A DNA stretch of 64,000 nucleotides from Methanoculleus methanifontis (lineage in GTDB: Archaea; Halobacteriota; Methanomicrobia; Methanomicrobiales; Methanoculleaceae): positions 62,001 to 126,000 of the forward strand of contig NZ_VCYI01000002.1 of assembly GCF_030464365.1 (NCBI RefSeq), written 5' to 3'. Below the pieces are notes generated by a model that worked only from the letters and a program-made list of their open reading frames with translations, was not told the DNA's origin and did not search any database. Positions 1,733 to 18,013 of this stretch are shown piece by piece. The position numbers were made by a program, and so were the translations under genes. The stretch's first letter is position 1; each line of letters begins with the position of its first letter.

Positions 1733-1763
1733 TAATGATGTCCCGGCACCGGGGGTGTCCCTG

Positions 1764-2303
1764 ATGAGACGAACACACATGAGTAACTCCGAACCCGGGC
1801 GCACACAGGAACAGTTCCCCTGCAGCGCCCCCGCCCGGAAGATCCTGCCGATCGCTGCGCTGTCGGTCATCCTGGCGTTGACCGCCCTCTCTGCAGGATG
1901 CATGACAGCACCCGGCGGAGCGGATGCCGCATCAGTCTCGCCGCTCAACGGCACCGTCACGAAAGTCGAGGTCATCCACTTCACCGCGCCGAGCCAGTGC
2001 TACTCCTGCGTGGTGCTAGGCGACTACGCCGAGGAGACCGTGAAGACGCACTTCCCCGAAGAACTCGGCTCCGGGAAGGTGATCTTCGACCACATCGATA
2101 TCGCCGACCCGGGAAAGAAGGAGATCGTCGAGCGCTATGGTGCGACCGGCTCGTCGCTCTGGCTCGGCACCTACGACGACCAGGGTGGATTCTACAAAGA
2201 AGAGGATACCCGGGTCTGGTACAGACTCAACGATAAACCCGGATTCATGCAGTACCTCAATGCGCTGATCGAGATGCGCCTTGCAGGGGACTTCTCGCAA
2301 TGA
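1764..2303 (+). CDS. ArsF-like secreted thioredoxin-fold protein
   Basis: About 179 residues. A charged N-terminus is followed by a hydrophobic segment ending in LSAGC, which suggests a membrane-anchored lipoprotein. The body has a thioredoxin-like motif QCYSC in the position of a CxxC and resembles the ArsF family described next to ArsG-type arsenical transporters. A GTG at 1755 is in frame, but the ATG at 1764 is better placed: GGGGGTG lies 6 bases before it. The gene overlaps the downstream permease by 4 bases (ATGA). A thiol-redox partner role for the permease is inferred from this pairing. Confidence 0.7.
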   Translation: MRRTHMSNSEPGRTQEQFPCSAPARKILPIAALSVILALTALSAGCMTAPGGADAASVSPLNGTVTKVEVIHFTAPSQCYSCVVLGDYAEETVKTHFPEELGSGKVIFDHIDIADPGKKEIVERYGATGSSLWLGTYDDQGGFYKEEDTRVWYRLNDKPGFMQYLNALIEMRLAGDFSQ

Positions 2304-3016
2304 GCCTGATGGGGTTCATGGAGACGATGGGGACGAGCAGCGTTCCTCTCGTCGCCGCGTTCTTCATCGGGCTGATGATGGCCCTCTCGCCCTGCCCGCT
2401 CGCGACGAACATTGCCGCGATCGGTTATCTCTCCCGCCGGATAGGGAGCCCGGGGCAGACCCTCCTCGCCGGGTCGCTCTACAGCGCGGGGAGGATGGTC
2501 GTCTACGTCGGGCTCGCGGCGTTGATCGTCATCTTCGGCCTCTCCGTCCAAGGGATCTCGCTCTTCCTCCAGTCCTGGGGGGAGATGCTGGTCGGCCCAC
2601 TGCTGATCGCCATCGGGGTCGTGATGCTCGATCTCGTCCCGCTCCCCTCATGGGGCGGCGGCAGCAGGCGGTTTGCCGCGTTCAAGGAGCGGATCGCCGA
2701 CCGGGGGCTCGCAGGGAGTTTCATCCTCGGCGTGCTCTTCGCACTGACCTTCTGCCCGTTCTCGGCGGTTCTCTTCTTTGCGATGCTGGTCCCGCTGGCG
2801 CTCCGAACCTCCGACCCACTCGGGGTGCCGGCGGTCTTTGCCGTCGCGACCGCTCTGCCGGTGATCGCGTTCTCGCTGATCATGGTGACCGGGATCGCGA
2901 AGGTGGGGAATGCGATGAAGGCGGCGGAGACGTTCGAGTACTGGACGCGGCGCATCGTCGGGGTGCTCTTCATCGGGATCGGGGCCTATCTTCTCGTGGC
3001 AATGCTGGTCGCGTGA
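2300..3016 (+). CDS. ArsG-like permease (CcdA/DsbD-type membrane fold)
   Basis: 238 residues with about six hydrophobic segments and the LSPCPLATN motif in the first one, typical of the cytochrome c biogenesis transmembrane (DsbD/CcdA) superfamily. A second FCPFSAV motif lies near residue 150. Cys-Pro pairs in these positions carry electrons across the membrane in CcdA relatives. Members next to ArsF are annotated as ArsG-type aromatic arsenical efflux permeases. Whether this one moves an arsenical or transfers reducing power is open. Start and stop overlap both neighbours (ATGA, GTGA), so the three genes form one unit. Confidence 0.75.
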   Translation: MSLMGFMETMGTSSVPLVAAFFIGLMMALSPCPLATNIAAIGYLSRRIGSPGQTLLAGSLYSAGRMVVYVGLAALIVIFGLSVQGISLFLQSWGEMLVGPLLIAIGVVMLDLVPLPSWGGGSRRFAAFKERIADRGLAGSFILGVLFALTFCPFSAVLFFAMLVPLALRTSDPLGVPAVFAVATALPVIAFSLIMVTGIAKVGNAMKAAETFEYWTRRIVGVLFIGIGAYLLVAMLVA

Positions 3017-3144
3017 CAGGCGGGAGCGAGAAAAAAGACGAAGGATGCACCGGCTCAGGAGTAAAGAAACTCTTTTCTTCCGGCTGCGGTTGCGGAACAT
3101 GGATCGTCCCGAAGACGGAAGTATCCGAGCCGAAAGAGGAGTAG
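3013..3144 (+). CDS. Small Cys-rich peptide
   Basis: A 43-residue reading frame beginning with GTG, whose GTGA overlaps the permease stop codon, the same coupling style as elsewhere in this operon. It has a Lys/Glu-rich start, one Cys early on (EGCTGSG), then SGCGCGTW and an acidic tail. Three closely spaced Cys resemble the Cys/Gly linker of the DGC-DUF2703 fusion. It may carry a metal or metalloid to the permease. I recognise no family, and the coding call rests on coupling and composition. Confidence 0.5.
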   Translation: MTGGSEKKDEGCTGSGVKKLFSSGCGCGTWIVPKTEVSEPKEE

Positions 3145-3303
3145 ACGGGTAGTGCGGGGTCGAGGGCACATCCCTCCTCTCCGCAGTCTTTGAGCGGAAG
3201 ACCGTGCGAACGCTGGCGGCCTCAGTGGGCCGGAATACCCTGACAGTTCCATGGCATCACCTACGGCCCGTATTCGCCTGATAACGTGTGTTTTTATATT
3301 TCA

Positions 3304-3313
3304 ACTCTAGAGT
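3304..3313. promoter_or_regulatory. Promoter region with 10-base palindrome before the ABC exporter
   Basis: A TTTTTATATTT stretch around 3289-3299 looks like an archaeal TATA box. It is followed at once by the perfect palindrome ACTCTAGAGT. The arrangement suggests a repressor site over the transcription start of the ABC genes that begin at 3425. Confidence 0.4.
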
Positions 3314-3424
3314 ATTCTCCAGGTTGGGTCCCGCCGTGACCGGGGAGATCGTTAACGAAATACTGAGCTGCGCACAGACGTCCGCGTCTTTCGCCGGCGG
3401 CCGGGCTGGTCGGGAGGAGATGGC

Positions 3425-4354
3425 ATGCCGAACGTGATCGAGGCCGCCGCCCTCACGAAGACTTTCGGCGCCGTCACCGCCGTGGACCGCGTCTCGTTCG
3501 AGGTTCGGCGGGGCGAGATCTTCGGGTTCCTCGGGCCGAACGGCGCCGGGAAGACCACCACCACGCGGATGCTCACCGGCGTCGTCCCGATGGACGGCGG
3601 GAGCGTGAGGATCTTCGGCCACGATATCCTGAAGGAACCGGTCCAGGCGAAGCAGCGGTTCGGCGTCGTGCCCGAGACCTCGAACGCCTATGTCGAGCTC
3701 ACCGCGTGGCAGAACCTCATGCTGATGGGCGACCTCTACGGGCTCGACCGCGCCCACTCGGAGCGGCGTTCCCGCGACCTCCTCGAGACCCTCGGTCTCT
3801 ACGGGAGGAAGGACCAGAAGGTGCAGGGCTACTCGAAGGGGATGAAACAGCGGCTTATCCTCGCCATGGCACTCCTCCACGAGCCCGAACTCCTCTTCCT
3901 CGACGAACCGACGAGCGGGCTTGACGTGCAGAGCACGCAGATGATCCTCGTTCTCCTGCGCGACCTGAACACGGACGGAACCACCATCTTCCTCACCACC
4001 CACAACATGGAGGAGGCGAACCGGCTCTGTGACCGCATAGGCATCATCCGGGCCGGCAAGATCGTCGCGATCGATGCTCCCGAGAGGCTGAAGACGGCGA
4101 TCGACCGCATGCACCGGCTTGAGGTGAGCTTCGACCGGCCGGTCTTGGCCGACGCCCTCGTGGGACTTGACGGCGTGGCCGAAGCGTACCGGACGGGGGA
4201 CAAGTGGCAGATCGTTACGGAGGATCCGGATCTCGTCATCCGGTCGCTCGTGGCCTTCAGCGGCGATTGCGGTGCGGCGATCCTCACCTTAAATACCCTC
4301 GCCCCGTCGCTCGACGAGGTCTTCCTGCGGCTGACCGGGGAGGAGCAACCGTGA
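3425..4354 (+). CDS. ABC exporter ATP-binding protein (DrrA/CcmA type)
   Basis: 309 residues. Walker A is GPNGAGKTTT (about residue 38), the signature is YSKGMKQRL (a variant of LSGGQ), Walker B is LLFLDEPTSGLD and the switch His is in TTHNME. The C-terminal 80 residues form the DUF4162-like extension usual in DrrA-type ATPases. It pairs with the membrane gene immediately downstream, overlapping by GTGA. The pair would form a two-component exporter. The substrate is unknown; the thiol/metalloid neighbourhood hints at detoxification. Confidence 0.9.
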   Translation: MPNVIEAAALTKTFGAVTAVDRVSFEVRRGEIFGFLGPNGAGKTTTTRMLTGVVPMDGGSVRIFGHDILKEPVQAKQRFGVVPETSNAYVELTAWQNLMLMGDLYGLDRAHSERRSRDLLETLGLYGRKDQKVQGYSKGMKQRLILAMALLHEPELLFLDEPTSGLDVQSTQMILVLLRDLNTDGTTIFLTTHNMEEANRLCDRIGIIRAGKIVAIDAPERLKTAIDRMHRLEVSFDRPVLADALVGLDGVAEAYRTGDKWQIVTEDPDLVIRSLVAFSGDCGAAILTLNTLAPSLDEVFLRLTGEEQP

Positions 4355-5106
4355 ACCCGGCGGCATACCGGGAACAGGCACGGCGGGCGTGGGCGATTGC
4401 GAGGAAGGACATCCGCGTCTACTACCTCAAGGGCCCGGTGCTCATCTTCGGGATCTTCATGCCGGTCTTCCTCTTCCTCGCCTTCTTCCTGGGCGGCCGG
4501 GACCTCCCGCTCGCGTTCCTCCTCTCCGGGCTCGTAGGAATGACCCTCTTCTTCACCGCGACCGCCGTCTCGCCGGCGATCTTCCCCTGGGAAGGGCAGG
4601 CAAGGACGCTCGAACGCCTTGCCACCTGCCCCGTCACCATCGAGGCGATCGTCCTCGGGGACATGATTGCCTCCGTCCTCTTCGGCATCGGGGTCACGGC
4701 GGTCACCATCCTCCTCGCGCTCGGGCTCGGCCTGCCCCTCCTGCACGGCATCGTGCTCGGTCTGGCAATCCCCATCGCCGCGTGTTGCTTCTCGGCAATC
4801 GGCGTCCTCCTTGCCGTCCCCCCGACGAACGTGCCCTCGAACATCATGATGCTCTCCACTCTCCTGAAGTTCCCGCTCGTCTTCATATCCGGTATCTTCG
4901 TCCCCCTGGAGCAGATGCCGGCGTGGGGGCTCATGCTTGCGGCCTGCTCGCCGCTCACCTACTTCACGGACGTCGTCCGCTACGCTTTCTCCGGCGCACA
5001 CCACTTCCCGGTGGTGGTCGATATTGCGGCGCTCACGCTCTTTGCCCTGGTCTTCACCGCCGCCGCGATGTACCTGCACAGGCGGAGCATGCCGCGGAGG
5101 ATCTGA
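4351..5106 (+). CDS. ABC-2 type exporter permease
   Basis: 251 residues with about six membrane spans after a basic N-terminus, in the order and length typical of ABC-2 (DrrB-like) permeases. The GTG start overlaps the ATPase stop and is preceded by AGGAG. The last loop before the final span carries the usual polar stretch (LTYFTDVVRYAFSG). It works with the upstream ATPase as a homodimeric exporter. The DUF2703 gene follows 53 bases downstream, which suggests shared transcription. Confidence 0.88.
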   Translation: MNPAAYREQARRAWAIARKDIRVYYLKGPVLIFGIFMPVFLFLAFFLGGRDLPLAFLLSGLVGMTLFFTATAVSPAIFPWEGQARTLERLATCPVTIEAIVLGDMIASVLFGIGVTAVTILLALGLGLPLLHGIVLGLAIPIAACCFSAIGVLLAVPPTNVPSNIMMLSTLLKFPLVFISGIFVPLEQMPAWGLMLAACSPLTYFTDVVRYAFSGAHHFPVVVDIAALTLFALVFTAAAMYLHRRSMPRRI

Positions 5107-5159
5107 TCCGGTGCAGCGACAGGAAGATGTCGGGTCGGTGCCAATAGTGGAGGTGCACC

Positions 5160-5552
5160 ATGAAGAAGGAACTCGTCATCGAATGGAAGCACGCCGAAGG
5201 GAACGTCGAAAAGACCCCTGAAGAGTTCGAGGAGACCGGGATGACGCTCGCGGCCGTTCTCGCGGAAATCCGCATGCTCCTCGAGATGGAGGGAGTCGGC
5301 GTCCGGCTGATCGAGACGGTCCTCCCCGACGATGCCGCCGCAGAGTCGGAGTCCCTCCTCTTCAACGGGATCCCGGTCGAAGAACTCCTCGAAGGGGTCG
5401 AGGTGACCGCGACGGCCTGTGCCTGCGCATCCTGCGACTCCTGCGGGGGAGACGCGGAGTGCCGGACGCTCCGCTACAACGGCGAGGAGTACGAGGCGAT
5501 CCCGCCGGAACTGATCGGGCGGGCCGCCGCAAAAGCGCTTGAGGTGGAGTGA
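5160..5552 (+). CDS. DUF2703 protein
   Basis: 130 residues, with a perfect GGAGGTG ribosome binding site 4 bases before the ATG. The whole protein matches the C-terminal half of the fusion protein at the window start: LVIEWKHAEG at the beginning, LIETVL in the middle, SLLFNG, and a Cys cluster ACACASCDSC before PPELIGRAA at the end. The Cys cluster (five Cys in about ten residues) suggests metal or metalloid binding. Function is not established for this family. Confidence 0.8.
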   Translation: MKKELVIEWKHAEGNVEKTPEEFEETGMTLAAVLAEIRMLLEMEGVGVRLIETVLPDDAAAESESLLFNGIPVEELLEGVEVTATACACASCDSCGGDAECRTLRYNGEEYEAIPPELIGRAAAKALEVE

Positions 5553-5695
5553 GGCGGGGCGGTCGGGCCGCCGTCGCCGGTTCCCTCTCATGCCGGGAGC
5601 CGGAGGTTTCCCGAACGCCGGAGTACACGGGGCCGGTTCCCGTAGCGGGGCGGGGGAGACTTTTTCAATCTGTTTTCAATGTATTGTACTTAACA

Positions 5696-5710
5696 TTAAC
5701 ATAAAGTTAA
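5696..5710. promoter_or_regulatory. AT-rich inverted repeat before substrate-binding protein 1
   Basis: TTAAC-ATAAA-GTTAA lies in an AT-rich promoter region about 90 bases before the GTG start, in an otherwise GC-rich sequence. Comparable TTWAC/GTWAA pairs precede the other transcription units of this locus, which suggests a common metal-responsive regulator. The spacer length differs between sites. Confidence 0.4.
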
Positions 5711-5800
5711 ATGACTATTTTTAATAAGGGCCGCGTTCCAACCACGATACCGTAAGCCTCCGATACCTCCCCGGAGCGTACCGGAGAGGACCGAACGGAC

Positions 5801-6883
5801 GTGGTAGTCATTACAAGACGTTGTCATCTTCTGCTCACCCTCCTCTGCATCTGCGGGGTGCTCCTCTGCACCTCCGCCGCCTGCACGACCGTCCGGGGGA
5901 CGGATTCCCCTGCGGAAAGCCGCACGATCACCGATATGGCGGGCCGGACCGTCGCCGTCCCGTCGGAGATCGAGAGCATCGCCTGCACCTCGCCGCCGTC
6001 GACGATGCTCGTTTACATGGTCGCGCCCGACCGGCTTGCGGGCTGGAACTTCGCGCCCGAAGAGGGCTACATCCCCGAGCGGTACATGGCACTCCCGGTC
6101 GTCGGGGGCTGGTTCGGGAAAGAGACCGGCAACTACGAGACCTTCATCTCGATGCACCCCGACATCGTCGTCGAGGGCTACACCACCGGCGGTGGGGCGG
6201 CGCACGTCACCGTCGCGGAGCGACAGCAGAAGATGGGTTCCATCCCGGTCGTCGCCGTCGAGGACACCACCAACGCCACCCGCTACTCGGGTCCCATCAG
6301 GTTCATGGGCGGCCTCCTCGGGGAAGAGGAGCAGGCCGAAGCGATGATCGCCTTCTACGAGGGCGTGCTCGCCACGGTGACGGAGCGGGTGGCCTCGATC
6401 CCCGACGACGAGCGGGTGGGGGTCTACTATGCCGAGGGGCCGAAAGGGCTCATGACCGACCCCTCGGGTTCGCCCCATGCCGAACTCATCGACCTCTGTG
6501 GCGGGAGGAACGTCGCCGAATGCGCGATTACGCCGGGAATGGGGATGACGGAGGTCTCGATGGAGCAGGTCATCGCCTGGAACCCGGACGTCGTTCTGGT
6601 CCACGACCCGGGATTCTACGCCACGGTCCGGACCGACCCTCTCTGGCAGGAGATCACCGCCGTGAAGACGGGCCGGGTCTACCTCATCCCGCAGACGGCG
6701 TTCTGCTGGTTCGACCGTCCGCCCGGGATCAACCGGATCGTCGGGATCCCCTGGACCGCCAAAGTCCTGTATCCGGACCTCTTCGCAGATATGGATCTCG
6801 AATCCCTCGTCCGTGAGTACCACGAGACCTTCATTCACGTATCGCTTTCCGACGACCGGATCCGGGAGATCCTGAACCCCTGA
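5801..6883 (+). CDS. Iron-complex/corrinoid-type ABC transporter substrate-binding protein 1
   Basis: 360 residues with a signal sequence ending in a likely lipobox (TSAAC), placing it on the outer face of the membrane. The fold signals are those of TroA/BtuF-like proteins: TDMAGRTVAVP at the first strand, then a hinge helix, VSMEQVIAWNPDVVLVHD, and the late WFDRPPG motif shared with the two other binding proteins here. GGAGAGGA lies upstream of the GTG start. No permease follows. It probably feeds the FecCD permease at 10098-11285. The ligand is unknown; a chelated metal or corrinoid is the family norm. Confidence 0.85.
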   Translation: MVVITRRCHLLLTLLCICGVLLCTSAACTTVRGTDSPAESRTITDMAGRTVAVPSEIESIACTSPPSTMLVYMVAPDRLAGWNFAPEEGYIPERYMALPVVGGWFGKETGNYETFISMHPDIVVEGYTTGGGAAHVTVAERQQKMGSIPVVAVEDTTNATRYSGPIRFMGGLLGEEEQAEAMIAFYEGVLATVTERVASIPDDERVGVYYAEGPKGLMTDPSGSPHAELIDLCGGRNVAECAITPGMGMTEVSMEQVIAWNPDVVLVHDPGFYATVRTDPLWQEITAVKTGRVYLIPQTAFCWFDRPPGINRIVGIPWTAKVLYPDLFADMDLESLVREYHETFIHVSLSDDRIREILNP

Positions 6884-6890
6884 GGTCAAG

Positions 6891-7532
6891 ATGGGATACG
6901 TACCAGGCAGATTCGACCGCGACGGGGCGGAGGATATGGACCGGATTGCAAAGACGATCTTCGCCCCGATCTATCCGGTGATTGCGCAGCAGATAATCGA
7001 GCGGTGCGGGATCTCCCGCGGCAGGTGCCTTGATATCGGCAGCGGCCCCGGCTCGCTCGGGATCGCCCTTGCGCAGGCGAGCGCGTTAGCGGTCACGCTC
7101 CTCGACTCCTCCCCGGAGATGATCGCCATTGCCGGAGGGAACGTCCGGGAGGCCGGGCTTTCGGGGCGCGTCGCGCTTCTATCGGGCGACGTTCACGACA
7201 TCCCGCTTCCCGATAGGTCCGTCGATCTCGCGGTCAGCCGCGGTTCGCTCTTCTTCTGGGAGGATCTCCCCCGTGCGTTCTCCGAGATCCACCGGGTTCT
7301 CGCACCGGGCGGGACGGCCTACGTCGGGGGCGGGTTCGGTACGGCCGAACTCCGGGACACCATCGCAGCCACGATGGAGAGGGCGAACCCGGACTGGAGG
7401 AGTTTCCGGGACAGGAACCTCGGCGCGGATAACCGGGAGCGGGTCGCCGGGATCCTCGAGAACCTCGGGTTCCGTCACCGGCTCGTCAGCGACGACTCGG
7501 GGTTCTGGGTTGTGATGGAGAAGGAGGGTTGA
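6891..7532 (+). CDS. Class I SAM-dependent methyltransferase
   Basis: 213 residues. SAM-binding motif I is LDIGSGPGSLG (about residue 45), followed by the acidic post-I position in LLDSSPEM and the motif DLAVSRGSLFFWED. The gene starts 7 bases after binding protein 1 and is followed directly by the radical SAM gene, so the three are one operon. Its small-molecule substrate cannot be read from the sequence. In this context it may act on the imported chelate or its ligand. Confidence 0.85.
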   Translation: MGYVPGRFDRDGAEDMDRIAKTIFAPIYPVIAQQIIERCGISRGRCLDIGSGPGSLGIALAQASALAVTLLDSSPEMIAIAGGNVREAGLSGRVALLSGDVHDIPLPDRSVDLAVSRGSLFFWEDLPRAFSEIHRVLAPGGTAYVGGGFGTAELRDTIAATMERANPDWRSFRDRNLGADNRERVAGILENLGFRHRLVSDDSGFWVVMEKEG

Positions 7533-7534
7533 GC

Positions 7535-9271
7535 ATGCGCTGCTCAATCTGCGAGAACCGCTGCGCCGTCCCGCCCGGGGGCGTCGGGCGGTGCAGGATG
7601 TATACGAACGAGGACGGAGCGATCGTCGAGCGGTTCCCCGACCGTTACATCGCGGCCATGCCGATCGCGATCGAGACGATGCCGATGTGCCACTACCACC
7701 CCCGTGGGACGTTCCTGCAGGCGAGCGGCATCGGGTGCACCTTCTCCTGCGGGGGGTGCATATCCGAGACGATCGCCTTCCACGCGGAGGCGGTCTCCGG
7801 GGCCCTCAGGCATATCCCGCCCGGCGCTCTGGTCAAGCGCGCCTTAAAAGAGGGGTGCCGGGGGATAGCCTTCTGCCTCAACGACCCGACCGCCATGCAC
7901 CGGACCTTCCTCGGGGTGGCCCGGGCTGCGCACGACGCCGGCCTCCTCGTCGGGTGCGCGACGAACGGCTATTACACGGAGGAGTCCCTCCGCGACATCG
8001 CGCCCGCCATCGATTTTGCGAACATCGGGCTGAAAGGAGCGTCGGATGCGCGTTACCGTGCGTGCGGTGCGCTCTCGGCGGAACCGGCCTTCCGGACGGT
8101 GAAGACCCTTCACGAAGCAGGCGTCCATGTCGAGGTCTCCTGCATCCACGCCCGGGGGTGCGACGACGAGATCCGGGCCGCGGCCGCCCGGGTCGCGGGG
8201 ATATCTCCCGATATCCCGTTCCTCGTCATGCGGTTCATCCCGTTCGGCGACGAACCGCCGGAGAGGGAACCGACGATTGCGGAGTCGGAGCGGATCTGCG
8301 ACGATCTGCGGCGGAAACTCCGCTACGTCTACCTCTTCAACTCGCCCGGGACCGGGTACCTCGATACGGCGTGCCCGTCCTGTGGAGAGACAGTCGTCCG
8401 GCGGGAGTTCTTCGGGCCGATGGGAGCGCGGACGATCGCGATCCCGCCGGACGCCCGGTGCTCCTGCGGTTGTTCTCTCCCCGTGACCGGGAGCGTCGCG
8501 GAGACGCTGTACGCCGAGCCGGGGATGATGGGCGGCTACCGGTTCACCCGGGCGCTGGAGATGGTTCACGCCGTCCTGGTCTGCCTCGGTGTCGAGTCCG
8601 ATGCCGACCTCGCCCGTATCTGGGCCGGGGTCATCCGGGACGACTACATCCGGGACCTCCACGGGAAGATCCAGACAATAGACGGCTACCTTGATCTCGT
8701 CCGTGAACTCGGGGAGCGGGCCGGCCGCACCGGGGCGGCGGAGAGGCTGGCCGGCTACATCGGCGACCGGGTGGCGGCGGTCTCGTCGGCGGTCGAGGGC
8801 TGCCGCCGGCCCCGGGTCTACTACTCAATGGGGTCGCCGCTCTTTGCCCTGAACGCCGACCGGTTCGAGATGGACCTCGTGGAAGCGGCCGGCGGCGACC
8901 CCGTTAACCGCGGGATCGTCCGGGCCGGAAAACCGGGCGTCAACATAACGCCGGAAGAGTTCGCCGCATTCAACCCCGAATATATCTTCGTATCCGGGTT
9001 CCTCTCGGCACCGGCCTCCGATTACATCGCGGCGTGCCGGAGGATGGGGCTCTCTGCCGACGCCGTCGAACACAGCCGTGTCTACACCCTTCCGCCGGGC
9101 TGGGACTTCGGCAACCCCCGCTGGGTGCTCGGCCTCTCTGCCATCGCAGGCACCCTCCACCCGGAGCGTGCCGTCTTCGACCTTGCCGCGGAGCAGGATC
9201 GGTTCTACCGGACGTTCTACGGGACCGATGCGGCCGCGATCACGGGGAACCGGTCGTTCTACCGTCCTTAG
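7535..9271 (+). CDS. Radical SAM enzyme fused to the C-lobe of a substrate-binding protein
   Basis: 578 residues. The N-terminus has a Cys cluster (CSICENRC, then GRC) like PflA/AmmeMemoRadiSam-type radical SAM proteins. The radical SAM cluster motif GCTFSCGGC follows near residue 70, then a TIM-barrel-like stretch to about 300, a further Cys set (CPSCGE, CSCGC), and a helical linker. From about residue 425 the sequence matches the C-terminal lobe of TroA-type binding proteins (RVYYSMGSPL, FNPEYIFVSG, GNPRWVLGLSAIAGTLHPE), closely parallel to the binding protein at 11648-12733. No signal peptide is present, so this lobe works in the cytoplasm. GGAGGGT precedes the ATG at 7535. It overlaps the convergent ATPase gene by 4 bases. 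Action on the imported compound is inference. Confidence 0.85.
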   Translation: MRCSICENRCAVPPGGVGRCRMYTNEDGAIVERFPDRYIAAMPIAIETMPMCHYHPRGTFLQASGIGCTFSCGGCISETIAFHAEAVSGALRHIPPGALVKRALKEGCRGIAFCLNDPTAMHRTFLGVARAAHDAGLLVGCATNGYYTEESLRDIAPAIDFANIGLKGASDARYRACGALSAEPAFRTVKTLHEAGVHVEVSCIHARGCDDEIRAAAARVAGISPDIPFLVMRFIPFGDEPPEREPTIAESERICDDLRRKLRYVYLFNSPGTGYLDTACPSCGETVVRREFFGPMGARTIAIPPDARCSCGCSLPVTGSVAETLYAEPGMMGGYRFTRALEMVHAVLVCLGVESDADLARIWAGVIRDDYIRDLHGKIQTIDGYLDLVRELGERAGRTGAAERLAGYIGDRVAAVSSAVEGCRRPRVYYSMGSPLFALNADRFEMDLVEAAGGDPVNRGIVRAGKPGVNITPEEFAAFNPEYIFVSGFLSAPASDYIAACRRMGLSADAVEHSRVYTLPPGWDFGNPRWVLGLSAIAGTLHPERAVFDLAAEQDRFYRTFYGTDAAAITGNRSFYRP

Positions 9272-10101
9272 GTGCCGTGGGGTTTTGTCCCGGCGGTATT
9301 CGCCCTTCCCCCGCCACGGCAGCCGCACGGGTTCATCGGGATGCAAACCGTCCGCCCGGCCTCCTTGATGTAGTGGACGCAGATATCGATCCCGTAGGCT
9401 TCACGGAGGTTCTCCTTCGTGATGACGTCTTCGGCCCGGCCCTGTGCGATCAGCCTGCCTTTCTCGAGGATGGCGACCGTGTGCGAGACCAGGAACGCGT
9501 GATCCGGGAAGTGGGTGCACATCAGGATGGCGATCCCGTCGGCGGCGAGCCGGTCGATCGTTGCCATCGCCGTTGTCTGGTTGCCGATATCGAGGTGCGA
9601 CGTCGGTTCGTCGAGGATGAGCAGCGACGGCTCCTGGGCGAGGGCGCGGGCAATCATTACCATCTGTGACTCCCCGCCCGACATCTCGGAGATGCACTTC
9701 TCCCGGAGATGGGTGATCCCGATCCGCGCAAACGCCTCCTCCGCCTTCTTGTAGTCCTCCTCTTTCGGGACCGCGAAGGTCGCGATATGCGGCGCTCGTC
9801 CCATGAGGACGAAGTCAAGTGCCGTGAACGGGAAGACGGCGCGGTGGGCCTGGGGAACGTAACCGACCTGCTGCGCGATCTCCTCGGTCCGCATATCGTC
9901 GACCCGGCGGCCGCCGATCTCCACCGTCCCGCCCTGGAGCCTGAGGATGTTTAAGATACACTTGATCAGGGTCGATTTTCCCGTCCCGTTCCTCCCGAGG
10001 AGGGAAAGGATCTCTCCTTGCCGGAGAGAGAGGGAGACGTCTTCGAACTGTTTTGTGATGCCGTCGTACGAGAACGAGGCGTTGTTGACGTTTAGAATCA
10101 T
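9268..10101 (-). CDS. FecE/BtuD-type ABC transporter ATP-binding protein with Cys tail
   Basis: 277 residues from the ATG at 10101; the longer open frame upstream is overlap with the permease. Walker A is GRNGTGKS, the signature MSGGESQM, Walker B LLILDEPTSHLD, and the switch His is in CTHFPDHA. The start overlaps the permease stop (ATGA), as in FecCDE/BtuCD importers. The C-terminus is unusual: after the normal end it carries CIPMNPCGCRGGG, a small Cys cluster that could bind metal or sense it. It energises uptake by the permease at 10098-11285. Confidence 0.92.
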   Translation of the reverse strand: MILNVNNASFSYDGITKQFEDVSLSLRQGEILSLLGRNGTGKSTLIKCILNILRLQGGTVEIGGRRVDDMRTEEIAQQVGYVPQAHRAVFPFTALDFVLMGRAPHIATFAVPKEEDYKKAEEAFARIGITHLREKCISEMSGGESQMVMIARALAQEPSLLILDEPTSHLDIGNQTTAMATIDRLAADGIAILMCTHFPDHAFLVSHTVAILEKGRLIAQGRAEDVITKENLREAYGIDICVHYIKEAGRTVCIPMNPCGCRGGGRANTAGTKPHGT

Positions 10102-11285
10102 GATATCCAGCCTACTTTTTTGCGTGTCAGGAGGTATGCGAAGAACGGCGCCCCGATGAGTGCCGTCAGGATGCCGAGAGGGATCTCGGCTGCGGTCAGG
10201 GTTCTTGCGATGTCGTCGACGACGAGAAGGAACGAGGCCCCGAGAACGGCCGATACGGGGATGAGCTTGCGGAAATCCGGGCCGACGAGCATCCTTCCTA
10301 TGTGGGGGACGACGAGACCGACCCAGCCGATGATCCCGCTGATGCAGACCGCGGAGGCGGTGACGATCGTCGAGGCGATGACGAGCACTATGGTCATCCT
10401 CTTTGTGTCCACCCCGAGCGCCCGCGCCTCCTCTTCGCCGACCGCGAGGAGGTTGATCCGCCACCGGATGAGGAAGAGACAGATGCTCCCGAGAAGGATC
10501 GGTGGGGCAACCGCGGTGATGTCGGCGTTCGAGACCGCGGAGAGGCTTCCCATCAGCCAGAAGACGATTGCAGGCAGGGTGTCGTACGGGTCGGCGACGT
10601 ATTTGGTGAGGGATATGAAGGCGGAGAAGAGCGACCCGACGATGATCCCCCCGAGGACGAGGACAAGGGTCGAGCTCTTGCCGACGGTGTGACCGATGCC
10701 GTAGGCGACGGCGACCGCGAGGATCCCGAAGAAGAAGGCGGAGATCTGGATGACCATGGGGTTGCCGGAGAGGAGGATCCCGACGGCCGCCCCGAACCCT
10801 GCGCCGGCGGAGACGCCGAGGATATCGGGCGAGACGAGGGGGTTTTTGAAGAGGCCCTGGAACGAGGCCCCGGCGATGGAGAGTCCTCCGCCGACGAGCA
10901 TCGCCGCGATCACCCGGGGGAGCCTGATCCGGAAGACGACCGTCTGTTTCGATGCCTCCCAGGTCTGCTCGAAGGAGGGGAGGAGGACCTGGTGGCCGGA
11001 GACGGTTGAGAGCAGGGATGACGCACCGTCGAGGAACGCGTTTATGGTTCCTACGGTGAGGATCCGCAACGTCTCCACCGGGTCCATCACGTACCTCCCG
11101 AAAAAGAGAGAGAAGAAGAAGAGGATGATTGGGAGGAGGTAGATTGCCTTCCCTGCCGGGATCAGCCGGAGAACGGCTTCATGGGCCGGTGTGCCGTCCC
11201 GAAAGACCGATCGCCAAAAACCGATCGCAACATTCTTCCTGGGTTCCTGTCCGATCTCTATAATCGGTTCTTTCCTATGGGTCAT
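10098..11285 (-). CDS. FecCD/BtuC-type ABC transporter permease
   Basis: 395 residues, about 60 longer at the N-terminus than usual FecCD permeases, followed by some ten membrane spans. Family motifs are visible: RLPRVIAAMLVGGGLSIAGA, FQGLFKNPLVSPDILGVSAGA, and GFVG-type loop GIIGWVGLVVPHIGR near the end, where the ATPase docks. With the downstream ATPase it forms the importer core. The three binding proteins in the neighbourhood (5801, 11648, 15921) could all deliver to it, since no second permease is present. A perfect 9-base inverted repeat covers its start codon region. Confidence 0.93.
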   Translation of the reverse strand: MTHRKEPIIEIGQEPRKNVAIGFWRSVFRDGTPAHEAVLRLIPAGKAIYLLPIILFFFSLFFGRYVMDPVETLRILTVGTINAFLDGASSLLSTVSGHQVLLPSFEQTWEASKQTVVFRIRLPRVIAAMLVGGGLSIAGASFQGLFKNPLVSPDILGVSAGAGFGAAVGILLSGNPMVIQISAFFFGILAVAVAYGIGHTVGKSSTLVLVLGGIIVGSLFSAFISLTKYVADPYDTLPAIVFWLMGSLSAVSNADITAVAPPILLGSICLFLIRWRINLLAVGEEEARALGVDTKRMTIVLVIASTIVTASAVCISGIIGWVGLVVPHIGRMLVGPDFRKLIPVSAVLGASFLLVVDDIARTLTAAEIPLGILTALIGAPFFAYLLTRKKVGWIS

Positions 11286-11308
11286 CCGGTATACCGTCCA
11301 TACCGGAT
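11284..11308. promoter_or_regulatory. Perfect 9-base inverted repeat over the permease start
   Basis: ATCCGGTAT, a 7-base spacer, then ATACCGGAT. It lies immediately upstream of, and touching, the permease ATG at 11285. It could be an operator, or in the transcript a hairpin that hides the start. Confidence 0.45.
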
Positions 11309-11391
11309 ATGTTTATTTGTTTTACTTAATATTATGGCAATGTAAATGGCATAACCTTTACAACAACAATAAAAAGGTTCGGCGGATCCCG

Positions 11392-11450
11392 CCGTGTTGC
11401 ACAATTTCCCGGGGTTTCCCTCACGGATCTTCCTGCGGTAGTTTCACTCA
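11392..11450. repeat. Copy 1 of a decayed 59-base repeat
   Basis: Begins CCGTGTTGCACAAT and runs to ATCTTCCTGCGGTAG..ACTC. It matches 17072-17130 in the same orientation at roughly three quarters of positions by eye. Read on the minus strand, both copies give a short RRKxRE-type peptide in which the frames no longer agree, so it may be a relic of a coding sequence. The two copies bracket the segment that carries binding proteins 2 and 3. Confidence 0.5.
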
Positions 11451-11580
11451 GGCCACCGCCGCAACCAGCGTGTTGCAACAGTTCACCTGTGCCTGGTCTG
11501 AGATCACCGTGAGGGGCGGGCAGACAGGTTCGGGGATAGGAATATATCTCCAGCTAATATGTAAATATATTTTATTTGAT

Positions 11581-11596
11581 TTTACTGAAAAGTAAA
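11581..11596. promoter_or_regulatory. AT-rich inverted repeat before substrate-binding protein 2
   Basis: TTTACT-GAAA-AGTAAA, perfect 6-base arms, about 50 bases before the start at 11648 and just after a TATTTTATTTGA promoter-like run. It resembles the repeats before the other two binding protein genes. Confidence 0.45.
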
Positions 11597-11647
11597 TGAT
11601 TATAGATAAATATGCGCGACGTCGCACTATTGTACGGTGTAGTCGGT

Positions 11648-12733
11648 ATGAAGAAAGATACTCGCCATCTGGTTCTCGCCATCGTGGCCGTCTGTGCCGT
11701 CCTGACTCTTGCTTTCGTCCTTGCAGCGCCCGGGACTGCCGGTGAAGAATCTGCTGCAACGGTCCGGACGATCACGGATATGGACAACAGGACAGTGACC
11801 ATCCCGTCCGAGGTCAGGACCGTGGTCATCACCTGTTGCGGCGGCGCGGCGCAGGAACTGGCGGCCCTGGGAGTCGGCGACCGGGTCGTCGCCCAGCCGC
11901 AGCAATGCACTACGGAGCGCCTGTATGTTGTCGTCCCCGGGTACCGTACCACACCCGACGTCGGTTCCTTCGACAACGCCAACGTGGAGGAGATCCTGAA
12001 ACTCAACCCCGACATTGTTATCGGGAGTTATTATGCAGAAACAGGCAACGCCCGCATTGAAGCAGCCGGGATCCCGGTCGTGCGGGTGCTCACGGGGCGT
12101 GCCGGAGTCGAGGAACTGAAACAGGAGTTCCGCATGCTGGGTCAGGTCTTCGGGCGCGAGGAGCGTGCCGAACGGCTGGTTGCGTACTGGGATGAAACGC
12201 TCGCGCGGATCGAGGCGAAGATCGCCGATCTCCCCGAGGGCGAGCGGAAACGGGTCTATTACATGATGAGCACCCCACTCAAGACGGAAGGCCACAGTGC
12301 GTGGGGTAACGATATGATCCGCGCTGCAGGCGGGATTAACGTCGCCGGAGGGATCGACCAGAAGGTCATCCGTGGGGGCTATGAGATCTCTGCCGAAGAG
12401 CTCGTCCGGTGGGATCCCGAGGTCATCTACGTTGCATCGAACATGAAGGACTACTCGAGCCCGGCCGGTGCGTTTGTAGCCAACCCCCAGTTTGCGACCG
12501 TCACGGCGGTCCGGGACGGGGCGGTGTATCCGTGTCCCGTAGGAACGTTCTGGTGGGATCGCCCCGCACCGGAGAGCCCGCTCGGGATCCTCTGGCTTGC
12601 ACAGAAACTCTACCCGGACCGGTTCGCCGACGTCGACCTCGCAGACGAGACAAAGAAGTTTTTCCGTGAGTTCTACGACTACGACCTTACGGACCAGGAG
12701 GTAGAGAGCATCCTCCACCCGACACCAATTTGA
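11648..12733 (+). CDS. Iron-complex/corrinoid-type substrate-binding protein 2
   Basis: 361 residues from the ATG at 11648, chosen because MKKDTRHLVLAIVAVC starts a normal signal sequence; the ATG at 11612 would add an unlikely leader. No lipobox is evident. TroA/BtuF-type features are TDMDNRTVTIP, LNPDIVIGS, WDPEVIYVAS and FWWDRPAPESPLGILW. A vicinal Cys pair (ITCCGGAAQE) lies where relatives contact ligand, and another Cys follows (QQCTTE), hinting at a soft metal. It starts the operon with the methyltransferase, the DUF364 protein and a second methyltransferase. Confidence 0.85.
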   Translation: MKKDTRHLVLAIVAVCAVLTLAFVLAAPGTAGEESAATVRTITDMDNRTVTIPSEVRTVVITCCGGAAQELAALGVGDRVVAQPQQCTTERLYVVVPGYRTTPDVGSFDNANVEEILKLNPDIVIGSYYAETGNARIEAAGIPVVRVLTGRAGVEELKQEFRMLGQVFGREERAERLVAYWDETLARIEAKIADLPEGERKRVYYMMSTPLKTEGHSAWGNDMIRAAGGINVAGGIDQKVIRGGYEISAEELVRWDPEVIYVASNMKDYSSPAGAFVANPQFATVTAVRDGAVYPCPVGTFWWDRPAPESPLGILWLAQKLYPDRFADVDLADETKKFFREFYDYDLTDQEVESILHPTPI

Positions 12734-12750
12734 ACGGATGTGGTTACACC

Positions 12751-13857
12751 ATGACAAGACAGACAATCCAGCTCCGGCAGGTCATGCCGGCGGTAGAGGG
12801 CGTTGCACGCCTGGATGCAGCCCTGTCCGGGTACCAATCGTACCAGGTCATCTCGGCAGCGCTCGAACTCCGGTTCTTTGACTGGCTCTCGGAGCGTGGC
12901 CCGACCGCAAGAAACGACGTCACTGCAATCGGCATAAACGGGATGTTTACCCGGGGTTTCCTGACGGCGCTCGCCGATATGGGATATATCACGTTCGAAG
13001 AGAACGTGTGTGCAAACACCCCAATCGCCGAAGAACTCCTGGTCAGCACCAGTCCCACCTACCAGGGCGACCTGATTCTCGCCGCCGGCAGGGAGACGTC
13101 ATCGTGGTCCCACCTGGCCGCAACGCTCAGGGACGGCATGGAGACGCCGAAAACCGGTCCCCGGCCGACGCACGATCACCTCAGGGCGGTCGCTCAGCGG
13201 TGCACCCGGGGCGAACTGCAACACGTCGTCGGCCTGATCGGCCAGCACTCCGGGTTCAGGAACGCCCGGTCCATGCTTGATGTTGGCGGTGGACACGGCC
13301 TCTACGCCGTCGCCCTCTGCCAGGAGAACCCGAACCTCCAGGCAACCGTCTTCGATCTCCCGCATGTGGTACCGCTGACCCGGGAGTACATCGGCAAATA
13401 CGGTATGGGTGGACGGATCTCCGCCCGGGGAGGAGACATCCTCGTCGACGATCCGGGCAGGGGGTATGACCTCATCATCGTCTCGCACCTCCTCTACACG
13501 TTCCGGGACCGGCTGACGGACGTCCTCGGCAAGATCACGGAATCTCTTGCCCCTGGTGGCCTTCTCGTCCTCAACCATCTCTTCTGCTCACCGGGCTGCA
13601 CCATATCCCCGGGGAGTGGGACTGCAGAACTCGATCGGGCACTCATGAGCGCCGGGCATCCGCTCTGCCACCCGGAAGGCCTTGAGGCCGTGCTCAAGCG
13701 CCTGGGATACATCGACATCACCAGTTCCCCCCACGAGACCGGAATGGGCTATGGCGTCCTCTTCTGTGCGACGAAAGATGGCGGCGAGACCGTGCATTGC
13801 CGGGACGGCTCCTCGTCTTCCGGGTGCAGCTGCGGGCCGGGCGGGTGCGGGAACTGA
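12751..13857 (+). CDS. O-methyltransferase-like SAM enzyme with Cys-rich tail
   Basis: 368 residues from the ATG at 12751; the TTG at 12730 would add seven residues. The N-terminal third is a winged-helix dimerisation region (SYQVISAALELRFFDWL), as in plant-type and hydroxyindole O-methyltransferases. Motif I is MLDVGGGHGLYAVA, followed by TVFDLPHV and a late FCSPGC stretch. The last 20 residues are a Ser/Gly/Cys tail with CSCGPGGC, which is absent from normal family members and probably binds metal. Its stop overlaps the start of the DUF364 gene. Substrate unknown. Confidence 0.85.
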   Translation: MTRQTIQLRQVMPAVEGVARLDAALSGYQSYQVISAALELRFFDWLSERGPTARNDVTAIGINGMFTRGFLTALADMGYITFEENVCANTPIAEELLVSTSPTYQGDLILAAGRETSSWSHLAATLRDGMETPKTGPRPTHDHLRAVAQRCTRGELQHVVGLIGQHSGFRNARSMLDVGGGHGLYAVALCQENPNLQATVFDLPHVVPLTREYIGKYGMGGRISARGGDILVDDPGRGYDLIIVSHLLYTFRDRLTDVLGKITESLAPGGLLVLNHLFCSPGCTISPGSGTAELDRALMSAGHPLCHPEGLEAVLKRLGYIDITSSPHETGMGYGVLFCATKDGGETVHCRDGSSSSGCSCGPGGCGN

Positions 13858-14696
13858 TGGGTGACAGTACAGTCCTCGACGCGACTGTCCGGATTCTCAA
13901 GGAGCGCCTCGGGGAGAGGATGGATGACGTGAGGGTCGATCGCGCGGTTGTGGGAGTCTTTTTCACGGGAGTCAAACTCAGCACGGGCCATGGGGGTATC
14001 TGCGCCACGCCCATAAAGTCGATCCCGGAAGCCGTCTGCTGCCCGAGTTCGGCAAAGGCGCTGCCGCACTCGGGGAGGCTCCGGGAGCGGAGAATCGAAG
14101 CCTACCTTGCCGACGCTCTTGGAGACCGGCCGATGCGCAAGGCGCTCGGGATCGCGGCCGTCAGCGCATTATCGGCGCTCTGTGACGATGTATGCCCCGG
14201 GCCGGATCACCCCGTCGTACGCGGCGTCGATGCGGTCGATCTCCTCACGATACAGGAGAGCGGGAATGTCGTGGTCGTCGGGGCGCTGACCCCGTATCTG
14301 CGTGCCCTCAAGCAGGCCGGTCAGCCGTTTCGTGTCCTCGAGATGGATCCCCGTACGCTCAAGCCCGACGAGCTGCCGTTCTACACGCCGGTCGAGGAGA
14401 CGGATATGGTCGTTCCCTGGGCTGACACCCTGGTCATCACCGGCACCACGCTGATCAACGGGACGCTCGACCACCTGCTCGAACTCGCCCGGCCGGAGGC
14501 CACGGTGGTCGTGCTCGGCCCTTCGGTGAGCATCCTCCCCGACGCTCTCTTCTCGCGCGGCGTGGAGATCGTCGGTGGAAACCAGGTGACCGACCCCGAC
14601 CGCCTGCTGGATATCCTTGCCGAGGGCGGTTCCGGCTACCACTTTTTCGGGAAGGGGGCCGACCGGATCGCCGTCCGGCGGTCCCAGGAACCGTGA
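13857..14696 (+). CDS. DUF364 protein (putative heavy-metal chelation family)
   Basis: 279 residues; the ATG overlaps the previous stop (TGATG), so earlier in-frame starts are unlikely. The N-terminal part is DUF4213-like with CATPIKSIPEAVCC, the C-terminal part is a Rossmann-like DUF364 domain (VVVVGALTPYLRALK, LEMDPRTLKPDELPFY, ADTLVITGTTLINGTLD, VVLGPSVSILPD). The family is named for a proposed metal-chelating role from its structure and its frequent occurrence beside iron-complex transporters. It lies between two methyltransferases in one operon. Metal insertion into, or removal from, the imported chelate is a plausible but untested role. Confidence 0.85.
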   Translation: MGDSTVLDATVRILKERLGERMDDVRVDRAVVGVFFTGVKLSTGHGGICATPIKSIPEAVCCPSSAKALPHSGRLRERRIEAYLADALGDRPMRKALGIAAVSALSALCDDVCPGPDHPVVRGVDAVDLLTIQESGNVVVVGALTPYLRALKQAGQPFRVLEMDPRTLKPDELPFYTPVEETDMVVPWADTLVITGTTLINGTLDHLLELARPEATVVVLGPSVSILPDALFSRGVEIVGGNQVTDPDRLLDILAEGGSGYHFFGKGADRIAVRRSQEP

Positions 14697-15571
14697 ACGC
14701 ACGAATGACACAGGATAATAATGTGAAATGCTGGATCGACTGCTGGAAAGCATCGGCACAGCACAGCAAGATAGTCAGTGACGACCTCCAGGCGACCCAA
14801 TGGGACGAGCGGGCTGACCGCTTTGTACAGAACATGGATGAGGAAAGGCACCGGAAACGAGTTGGCGATGTTTTTGCAATTCTGGAGGAGGCCGGTTTCT
14901 CACCCGAGGGCGCACGCGTCCTCGACATCGGGTGCGGACCGGGCACCCTCTCCCTCCCCCTTGCCCGGGCCGGGGCGGACGTCACGGCCCTCGACATCTC
15001 GACGAGGATGCTCGACCACCTCAGGGAAACCGCGCAAAATGAAGGCTTGCGTGTTAACGCGGTCGAATGTTCCTGGTGGTCGGCCGATATCGACAAACTT
15101 GGGTTCCGGGAGAAGTTCGATCTCGTGATCGCGTCGATGACGCCGGGAATCAGGGACGTCGAGACCTTCGACCGGATGATGGCGTGTTCAAGGCAGTTCT
15201 GCTATTACAGCCGCTTCGTCGGGAGGGTGGGCACAGACGGGGCTCGCCGGGAGATTTTCAGGAAAATCCTGGGTGAGGAACCCGACAACCCCGGGCCGGA
15301 TATGCTGTATCCGTTTATGTACCTCTACGTTCTTGGTTACCGGCCGCTTGTGAGACTCAGCCATGTTTCAAGGACCCAGGAGCGGGACTGGGCCGAAGCA
15401 GCGGAAGAGACGATCAACGATCTGAGATGCACCCGCGATGTTTCCAGCGATGTCGAGGAAAAGATCAGGGAGTATTACAAAAATGCGTCGCCAGACGGCA
15501 AATATCGTTCCGAAACAGAGAGTTGCAGCGGCATGATGGTCTGGTCTGTCACGGCCGGAGATGGGGTATAA
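14693..15571 (+). CDS. Class I SAM-dependent methyltransferase
   Basis: 292 residues from a GTG whose GTGA overlaps the DUF364 stop; the ATG at 14705 is the alternative. Motif I is VLDIGCGPGTLSLPLARAGA, followed by VTALDIS, then DLVIASMTPGI. It is related along its length to the methyltransferase at 45343-46185 (same region LSLPLARAGA/LALPLARAGA). It closes the operon with binding protein 2, the O-methyltransferase-like gene and DUF364. Substrate unknown; an action on the transported ligand is inference from context. Confidence 0.85.
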   Translation: MNARMTQDNNVKCWIDCWKASAQHSKIVSDDLQATQWDERADRFVQNMDEERHRKRVGDVFAILEEAGFSPEGARVLDIGCGPGTLSLPLARAGADVTALDISTRMLDHLRETAQNEGLRVNAVECSWWSADIDKLGFREKFDLVIASMTPGIRDVETFDRMMACSRQFCYYSRFVGRVGTDGARREIFRKILGEEPDNPGPDMLYPFMYLYVLGYRPLVRLSHVSRTQERDWAEAAEETINDLRCTRDVSSDVEEKIREYYKNASPDGKYRSETESCSGMMVWSVTAGDGV

Positions 15572-15782: not shown

Positions 15783-15786
15783 CATG

Positions 15787-15803: not shown

Positions 15804-15920
15804 AAATATTAAATTCCCGGCGTTAAAGACGTTACATCACACCTGTGAGGCGATATGCCGGAACGCCTGAAGGGCTACCCGTACGGGACCTGCGTATGAG
15901 GCCTGCAGGGGGTGTTAATG

Positions 15921-16976
15921 ATGAAAGAGACGAGTACAGTCCTGAAAGCGTTCATAACCCTATCATTTATAGCACTTCTGGCGTTCACCTGCGGCTGCAC
16001 CGGGCAGGGACAGGCGACCGACAGCGGGACAACAGTGGTCACGGACATGGCGGGTCGGGAGGTCGTCGTCCCGAAAAATATCGATAGTATCGTGACGATC
16101 GGTTCCGTGCCGGTGCTGAACAGTTTCATGTTCGCCATGGGGCAGGGGGGCAAGATCGCCAATGACCTGCCGGAGTCATTCATCAAAGGAGGCAGACACA
16201 AGTACCAATACGTGTTCGAGCCCAATTTAAAGAACAAATTAACGATCCAGACCACGACCGGGGACTTCAATCTCGAGGAACTCATGAAGATCAACCCGGA
16301 CGTTGCATTTACCATGAGCATGCCCTCGGTCGATAAACTCGAGAAGAACGGTATCCCAGTCGTTTATCTCTCCTGGACGGATGCTGAGGACGTGAAAGAC
16401 CTGCTGCTGCTGCTCGGGGAGGTCTTCGGTGAGCAGGAGAAGGCCGGGAGGTACGTCAGGTACTTCGACGAGGCCACCGCCCGCCCGGGTAAGGCGGTCG
16501 CATCCTTGCCGGACGACCAGCGGCCAAGGGTGTTGTGTTGTTCATACAAGGGCATGTCTGTGGGCCACAAGATAGCCGAGTGGTATATCGAGAAAGCGGG
16601 TGGGATAGCTGTCGCTAAGGAGGCCCATGTTGCGGAGAGCCTGCAGTTTGATCTGGAGCAGTTACTTGCCTGGGATCCCGACGTGCTCATTCTTAGCAGC
16701 CATGATGAGATCCCCCTGGTTTACAACGATACACGGCTCAGCGGCGTAAGTGCAGTAAAGAACGGGAAGGTGTATGCGACGCCCGCGGGAGCGCATTACT
16801 GGATCCAGCGTACAAGCGAGACGCCGCTGATGGTGCTCTGGGTAGCGAAGACAATCTACCCCGAACAGTTCAAGGACTTCGATATGGAGGCAGAGGTCAT
16901 AGCCTTCTACAAAGAGTTCTACAACTGCGACATAACACGGGAGCAGGCAGCGGAGATACTCAGCGGAACGGCATAA
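15921..16976 (+). CDS. Iron-complex/corrinoid-type substrate-binding protein 3
   Basis: 351 residues. The ATG at 15921 is chosen because GGGGGTG lies 6 bases before it. The signal sequence ends in a lipobox (TCGC), so it is a membrane-anchored lipoprotein. TroA-type features: TDMAGREVVVP, KINPDVAFTMS, LEQLLAWDPDVLILSS, and HYWIQRTSETPLMVLW. It has a vicinal Cys pair in RVLCCSYKGMSVGHK, in a different place from that of binding protein 2. It stands alone on its own transcript, and a decayed copy of its 5' end lies just downstream. Confidence 0.87.
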   Translation: MKETSTVLKAFITLSFIALLAFTCGCTGQGQATDSGTTVVTDMAGREVVVPKNIDSIVTIGSVPVLNSFMFAMGQGGKIANDLPESFIKGGRHKYQYVFEPNLKNKLTIQTTTGDFNLEELMKINPDVAFTMSMPSVDKLEKNGIPVVYLSWTDAEDVKDLLLLLGEVFGEQEKAGRYVRYFDEATARPGKAVASLPDDQRPRVLCCSYKGMSVGHKIAEWYIEKAGGIAVAKEAHVAESLQFDLEQLLAWDPDVLILSSHDEIPLVYNDTRLSGVSAVKNGKVYATPAGAHYWIQRTSETPLMVLWVAKTIYPEQFKDFDMEAEVIAFYKEFYNCDITREQAAEILSGTA

Positions 16977-17323: not shown

Positions 17324-18013
17324 TCACCCCTCCGGGCCGTAGCACCGCCGGAGGATCACCGGGGTGCTCCGTGGCGCCCCGGTGACCGTATCCGCAAAGA
17401 GCACTGGAGCGGCGATGCGATCCCCCGGAACCGGCGCCGCCGTGATCGGGGAGAACGTCTGTGCTTCGCGCCACTCCCAGACGGCGTCCATCACGGCGTC
17501 CGCCGTCGCCATGGCGCTCGCGGTCCCGACGTCCACCACGACAGGGTTCGTGATATTCCACCGTTCGACGACCGTGTCGAGGAGCCTGCGCCGGACCGTC
17601 CAGACCATCGGGGGGTGCGGGTGCGCGGTCAATCGGTCGAGCTGCTCCGCCCAGACCGCACCCTGGAGCTCGAACCTCCCGACTTCGTCGATGACCACAA
17701 GGTCGGTCTCCCGCGGATCCGGCGGCGCGAGCGCCCGGCGGCCGAACACGAGCCCCTCGGGGCGGAAGTAGAACCGGCCGTGGGCCTCGCACCGCGGGTC
17801 GGGGTCGATCGAACAGAGTTCCTCGTGCTCGCCGGTGGCGAGGTCGACCAGGGTGAACCCCGACCTCCGCCCGTCCCGCACGTGTCCGGGGGCGATGACC
17901 CCGCGGACCCGGACGTTCAGCCCGACGATGAGCCCGAGAACCAGGTGCAGGAACGTCGTCTTGCACTGGCCCTGCCCGCCGGTGATGATGAAGACCGGTG
18001 CCCGGTGGTTCAT
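17324..18013 (-). CDS. THEP1-like P-loop nucleoside triphosphatase
   Basis: 229 residues from the ATG at 18013, with GGAGGGGT about 8 bases before it. The fold is that of the THEP1/NTPase_1 family: a P-loop at residues 9-17, then GVIAPGHVRDGRRSGF, the Walker B VVIDEVGRFEL, and WTVRRRL. The P-loop reads GGQGQCKTT, with Cys where the last Gly of GxxxxGKT is expected, which may alter or abolish hydrolysis. It is divergent from the DUF5714 gene. Family members are found in anaerobes beside molybdenum or iron transport genes; its role here is unknown. Confidence 0.75.
   Translation of the reverse strand: MNHRAPVFIITGGQGQCKTTFLHLVLGLIVGLNVRVRGVIAPGHVRDGRRSGFTLVDLATGEHEELCSIDPDPRCEAHGRFYFRPEGLVFGRRALAPPDPRETDLVVIDEVGRFELQGAVWAEQLDRLTAHPHPPMVWTVRRRLLDTVVERWNITNPVVVDVGTASAMATADAVMDAVWEWREAQTFSPITAAPVPGDRIAAPVLFADTVTGAPRSTPVILRRCYGPEG

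Follow-up and report, generated by a model that had tools for sequence, protein, structure and literature searches.

A radical SAM domain fused to a transporter-type binding lobe: a candidate processing enzyme for molybdenum or tungsten acquisition

What use would a cytoplasmic radical SAM enzyme have for part of a transporter's binding protein? The question is raised by a locus in a 64,000-nucleotide stretch of the Methanoculleus methanifontis genome (the window), in which positions 7535..9271 of the plus strand form a single stop-free reading frame of 578 amino acids (ORF translation) encoding a radical SAM domain, a helical linker and the C-terminal lobe of a binding protein. A preliminary description had proposed that the two parts are joined in one uninterrupted frame, that the product carries no signal peptide and that the lobe holds an imported compound for radical chemistry, with cobamides, haem and metal chelates named as candidate ligands. 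No paper describing such a fusion was found in the open-access PMC literature.

Architecture of the fusion protein

The N-terminal part of the fusion (residues 1-320; 7535..8494, plus strand) is a radical SAM domain of the AmmeMemoRadiSam/pyruvate formate-lyase activase type. The AmmeMemoRadiSam radical SAM model TIGR04337 covers residues 1-319 (E 4.5e-28), placing the two enzymes in the same domain family, but at 98.1 bits the fusion falls below the cut-off of 220, and it is further set apart by its attached lobe and by the absence of linkage to Memo, which lies on a different contig from the fusion in the same genome. The cluster motif C68-x3-C72-x2-C75, invariant across 48 aligned homologues, falls within a predicted radical SAM fold, the combination by which radical SAM membership is recognized. 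Further cysteines form an N-terminal group (C3-C6-C10-C20) and a second site (C280-C283-C309-C311); in the same alignment no variation occurs at the four N-terminal cysteines or at most of the C-terminal ones, those of the domain as a whole being invariant or nearly so. No HemN-type model in NCBIfam matched the fusion at E 0.01, which places it outside the HemN-like class C.

An AlphaFold2 model computed from the alignment of 48 fusion homologues has a pLDDT of 92.7 and a pTM of 0.92, with no low-confidence stretch. In a Foldseek search of the PDB, the N-terminal part matched the pyruvate formate-lyase activating enzyme (3c8f, TMt 0.76). This closest fold would suit a reading in which the target of the radical SAM part is a protein, such as the binding protein or a partner enzyme, that it activates or modifies, with the lobe serving only as a docking module; however, no glycyl radical enzyme was recognized among the recurring neighbours and conservation of the lobe falls in its ligand-facing loops, and we consider such a role most improbable.

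The C-terminal part corresponds to two elements of a TroA/Peripla_BP_2 protein, the backbone helix and the C-terminal lobe (residues 399-566; 8729..9232, plus strand). Its Foldseek matches are binding proteins, with iron, haem, B12 and molybdate among their ligands; they include 4hn9, 4ovk, 4pag, CeuE and, among the top matches, the Haemophilus molybdate binding protein 3psa, in agreement with the TroA-type lobe originally proposed. The chain 4hn9 also matched residues 392-565 in a phmmer search of the PDB (E 5e-10), where 4pag was matched as well, and none of the 50 Foldseek matches listed is described as a protein containing both parts of the fusion. The PF01497 profile spans residues 381-521 with its positions 91-233 only, scoring just above the gathering threshold (28.3 against 27.5 bits), such that the fusion has the C-lobe half of a Peripla_BP_2 domain and neither the two lobes nor the secretion signal of that family. 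The N-lobe is absent, its place in the model being taken by helices of a small fusion-specific linker (residues 325-395; 8507..8719, plus strand) that carries an invariant GGY at 333-335 and joins the radical SAM part to the lobe. In both fold and sequence the backbone helix and C-lobe resemble those of class III (TroA/FecCD-type) binding proteins, including the H. influenzae HI1470/71 molybdate protein (3psa), from which the fusion differs in having no N-lobe and no signal peptide and in being joined to an enzyme. The best 19-residue hydropathy within its first 45 residues is 0.69, compared with 2.0-3.1 in the three secreted binding proteins of the window, and the lobe is thus predicted to be cytoplasmic, as first described.

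Positions conserved at 90% or more are concentrated in the loops of the lobe (18 of 35, compared with 24 of 105 elsewhere; Fisher p 0.0025), a test that is suggestive only, as the loops were picked after viewing the conservation and the predicted strands. The most conserved lobe residues would thus appear to lie in loops that follow strands, the ligand-facing side in such proteins. Within the window, the closest relative of the lobe is the secreted binding protein BP2 (11648..12733, plus strand), with 35% identity over 188 residues (E 1e-22), the best match among the binding proteins of its own genome that were compared, and the two remaining window binding proteins are related at E 8e-9 and 3e-6. 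The likeness to BP2 that was reported earlier is therefore upheld, but the binding protein belonging to the operon itself is BP1, at 5801..6883.

Operon context and distribution

BP1, a secreted iron-complex-type binding protein (plus strand; PF01497, 1.5e-24) that heads the same operon in Methanosarcinaceae-type genomes, is followed by the class I methyltransferase MT1 (6891..7532, plus strand; PF08241, 8e-22), which lies directly upstream of the fusion. The minus strand encodes the ATPase (9268..10101) and permease (10098..11285; PF01032, 2.8e-84) of a FecCD-type ABC importer. BP2 is followed on the plus strand by an accessory module comprising the O-methyltransferase MT2 (12751..13857; PF00891, 2e-14), a DUF4213/DUF364 protein of putative heavy-metal chelation function (13848..14696; PF04016, 3.3e-46) and the methyltransferase MT3 (14705..15571), then by a third secreted binding protein, BP3 (15918..16976, plus strand; PF01497, 1.1e-17), and a PF03266 NTPase on the minus strand (17324..18013).

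Much of this context recurs. MT1 lies within 300 bp and on the same strand in 54 of the 62 clade A loci not at a contig edge, and within 6 kb of clade A fusions the permease is found in 40 of 62 and the ATPase in 46 of 62, while the 12 clade B loci have no MT1 and instead DUF364 in seven, MT3 in six and the NTPase in four, all of these counts including close relatives and hence not being independent. In Methanosarcinaceae-type genomes the operon is compact, with one or two binding proteins, MT1, the fusion, permease and ATPase. The five-gene arrangement binding protein, MT1, fusion, permease, ATPase occurs in Methanosarcina-, Methanolobus- and Methanohalophilus-type genomes, and the same five genes, rearranged, in Methanoculleus, Methanospirillum and Solidesulfovibrio. 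The Desulfobacter operon has an inserted TonB receptor of haem/siderophore/B12 type; together with the type of importer, this receptor suggests that the cargo is a metal complex and not a bare oxyanion such as free molybdate. The same transporter family also includes chains of about 640-660 residues that unite two binding proteins (L036:5244-7172, L037:7134-9074 and L136:248-2239).

Several of these neighbours would fit a corrinoid or other tetrapyrrole as the substrate, the lobe holding a cobamide or haem while the radical SAM domain carries out a B12-dependent or ring-modifying reaction. The best models for the permease are BtuC (below cut-off), MT2 resembles BchU, the TonB receptor in Desulfobacter has matches to haem and B12 families, and a corrinoid-adenosyltransferase-like gene, identified by inspection of its sequence, is found upstream in two loci of Methanoculleus type (L021 and L053). 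However, this corrinoid-type gene is confined to one sub-branch, no corrinoid gene is prominent among the recurring neighbours, a cobalamin riboswitch is absent from the bacterial loci (with no Rfam match of any kind in 14 loci and the first 24 kb of the window), and the operator described below is common to mod and fmd genes, making a tetrapyrrole substrate quite unlikely. Cobamides and haem are thus not favoured as ligands, and regulation and neighbourhood point instead to molybdenum or tungsten.

Full-length fusions are present in at least 25 of 61 related genomes, and a GTDB scan yielded 62 loci, nearly all with a fused gene, adding representatives from Methanospirillum, Methanoregula, Methanohalophilus, Desulfobacula, Desulfobacter, Solidesulfovibrio and Desulfosporosinus. 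The fusion is thus old and conserved in methanogenic archaea (Methanomicrobiales and Methanosarcinaceae) and in some sulfate-reducing bacteria (Desulfobacterota and Desulfosporosinus), bearing out the single frame first described, and its occurrence at full length in many genera rules out an assembly join or an accident of two genes. A phylum sample gave matches at E 1e-60 in 32 of 247 genomes, at least two of which have only a stand-alone radical SAM gene. The M. methanifontis genome itself holds a second fusion copy on another contig (56% identity), and a more divergent paralogue (about 40%) lies back to back with the first copy in some Methanoculleus genomes.

In a tree of 80 lobes, the fused lobes form one clade (support 100/98) separate from the binding proteins, which rules out the lobe being a recent copy of BP2; three seeming exceptions are broken fusions. 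Apparently broken copies, with a frameshift or stop, occur in several genomes (loci L025, L012, L035/L076 and L096). We set aside the possibility that frameshifted copies represent a truly split system, as the halves at L025 are in different frames near the junction and L079 contains a run of N, and we read these cases as decay or gaps. In Desulfobacula and some genomes of one other genus, a stand-alone radical SAM gene (31-38% identity) is accompanied by a transporter of this kind, by MT1 and by a 390-residue protein, and so the fusion may not always be needed for function. The protein of about 390 residues is encoded between the stand-alone gene and MT1 (L068:4148-5329, L036:8255-9415, L037:4922-6088, L071:6499-7692 and L072:6300-7472); the one member tested had no Pfam or NCBIfam match, and an AlphaFold2 model from 6 sequences reached a pLDDT of 42.

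A ModE-like palindrome and molybdenum or tungsten genes

Upstream regions of the Methanosarcinaceae-type fusion operon contain a palindrome, CGTTATGTT-N6-AACATAACG, in most cases about 50 bp before the start. A search of 14 genomes allowing up to 2 mismatches returned 43 sites in 13 genomes, compared with 1 for the control, and all 13 have the palindrome before the fusion operon. Sites were assigned to the fusion operon (13), modA (16), fmdEF (4), fmdDB (1), an S-layer protein (5), another binding protein of the family (1), a gene pair with a modD/nadC-like member (2) and nothing clear (1). Of the modA targets, some were scored against a model and the unscanned ones were recognized by BLAST similarity to modA genes at other loci. 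Thirteen of the 14 genomes belong to one family, probably Methanosarcinaceae, a name given on the operon arrangement, which is shared by the Methanohalophilus loci L056 and L057; the 14th, from another family, has the fusion and no palindrome site.

With its modA and fmd targets, the palindrome has the same CGTTAT...ATAACG arms and N6 spacing as the E. coli ModE consensus, ATCGNTATATA-N6-TATATANCGAT (PMC545781), and differs in its inner three bases, which are GTT and not ATA. Judged from these sites, the fusion operon of this family is very probably part of a molybdenum or tungsten regulon, which does not prove that either metal is the substrate. A surface protein is an unexpected member of such a regulon: an S-layer-family protein of about 425 residues has the same palindrome at L144, L146, L151, L207 and L208, and in one genome (G163) its gene lies directly 3' of the fusion operon.

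The same sites bear on iron. Because the lobe and transporter are of iron-complex families, the fusion could be an anaerobic siderophore-processing enzyme, its molybdenum neighbours merely co-located as metal uptake genes cluster. We regard this as very unlikely, as the other targets of the operator are mainly molybdate transport and molybdenum-enzyme genes, and no iron-uptake gene was recognized among the sites inspected.

The gene neighbourhood adds to the regulatory evidence. The fetched stretches of 50 GTDB loci (0.79 Mb) include modA in eight cases, compared with about 0.5 expected from its density in 61 genomes, the modA-adjacent loci being phylogenetically clustered into about five or six arrangements from few lineages. 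In Methanomicrobiales the fusion often adjoins modABC, moeA, molbindin or fmdE, and modABC/wtpC-like genes recur. In Desulfosporosinus, MT1 is separated from the fusion by nifDK-like and nifH-like genes, and the Fe-only nitrogenase genes anfHDGK come after the fusion; alternative nitrogenases are believed to be used under molybdenum limitation (PMC9147875). This nifD-, nifK- and nifH-like insert is seen at L078:5193-8902 in Desulfosporosinus fructosivorans. The shared operator together with the mod, moeA, fmd and nitrogenase neighbours indicates that the fusion system probably serves molybdenum or tungsten. In Methanoculleus no palindrome was found (none within 5 mismatches in window positions 1-20000) and no mod gene lies near the fusion there or in the window; the molybdenum or tungsten role is thus carried over to this genus by homology, and we infer the identity of the metal in the window organism on that basis.

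Possible release or synthesis of a metal complex

We tentatively propose, as something close to an even call, that the fusion acts in the cytoplasm as the processing enzyme of a molybdenum or tungsten acquisition system, releasing the metal from an imported complex. A secreted binding protein and the FecCD-type importer would bring the metal-bearing complex into the cell, where the lobe, drawn from the importer's own binding-protein family, would offer the radical SAM domain either the complex or its ligand. This domain and the adjacent MT1 would then alter the ligand so that the metal is freed and passed to molybdopterin enzymes (formylmethanofuran and formate dehydrogenases) or to nitrogenase. 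For a radical enzyme that is cytoplasmic and carries a binding lobe, processing of an imported complex would seem to be the most economical role. The earlier idea that the lobe holds imported cargo for radical chemistry stands as regards a TroA-type lobe that is predicted to be cytoplasmic, is operon-linked to an importer of its own family and has conserved ligand-facing loops, and is not favoured as regards cobamide or haem. We infer that the lobe holds a molybdenum or tungsten complex, and the direction would be release and not ligand synthesis; the missing partner lobe counts against this reading, as does the fact that no molybdenum or tungsten chelator is known from the organisms that bear the fusion.

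A parallel exists in ChuW, HutW and HmuW, anaerobic haem-degrading radical SAM methyltransferases that occur with haem importers and process their cargo intracellularly (PMC10404700). As there, a radical SAM enzyme is encoded together with an importer of metal chelates, but the fusion belongs to another radical SAM subfamily, has a molybdenum or tungsten and not a haem context, and carries a fused lobe that is unrecorded in ChuW, HutW and HmuW.

The serious rival to release is synthesis, in which the fusion and MT1 would build a molybdenum or tungsten chelator (metallophore), the lobe holding the growing or loaded ligand and the importer retrieving the loaded chelator. With its radical SAM enzyme, as many as three methyltransferases and DUF364, the window locus looks like a small cluster for biosynthesis, and the same regulon evidence is in favour of synthesis. 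DUF364 has been tied to tungstate, molybdate and vanadium transport genes and proposed to act in chelator synthesis (PMC2954201). Against this, the minimal operon contains neither an exporter nor any other biosynthetic gene, and we consider synthesis rather unlikely.

It may be, though this is somewhat doubtful, that anaerobic archaea and bacteria import molybdenum or tungsten bound in an organic complex, a molybdophore or tungstophore, which is processed by a radical SAM enzyme with its own cytoplasmic lobe, a new architecture and a new route beside ModABC, WtpABC and TupABC. Methanogenesis from CO2 and nitrogen fixation both need molybdenum or tungsten, which are scarce in sulfidic sediments, and a dedicated, regulated importer with a cargo-handling radical enzyme would help to explain competition for these metals. 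It would also add a radical SAM architecture whose substrate-holding part is borrowed from a transporter family, and a radical SAM subfamily with no assigned function would gain a testable one.

Elsewhere in the window, part of the model for MbdU, a metal-binding double-selenoprotein, matches the protein at 18241-18882 with E 4e-23, a score well short of the model's cut-off. Upstream of the fusion operon, positions 807-5552 encode an ArsC-like reductase, an ArsG-family arsenical permease (2300-3016), a thioredoxin-like lipoprotein and DUF2703-like proteins, a group that is probably concerned with arsenic or thiol handling and separate from the fusion, and a second ArsC-like reductase is encoded at 33185-33592.
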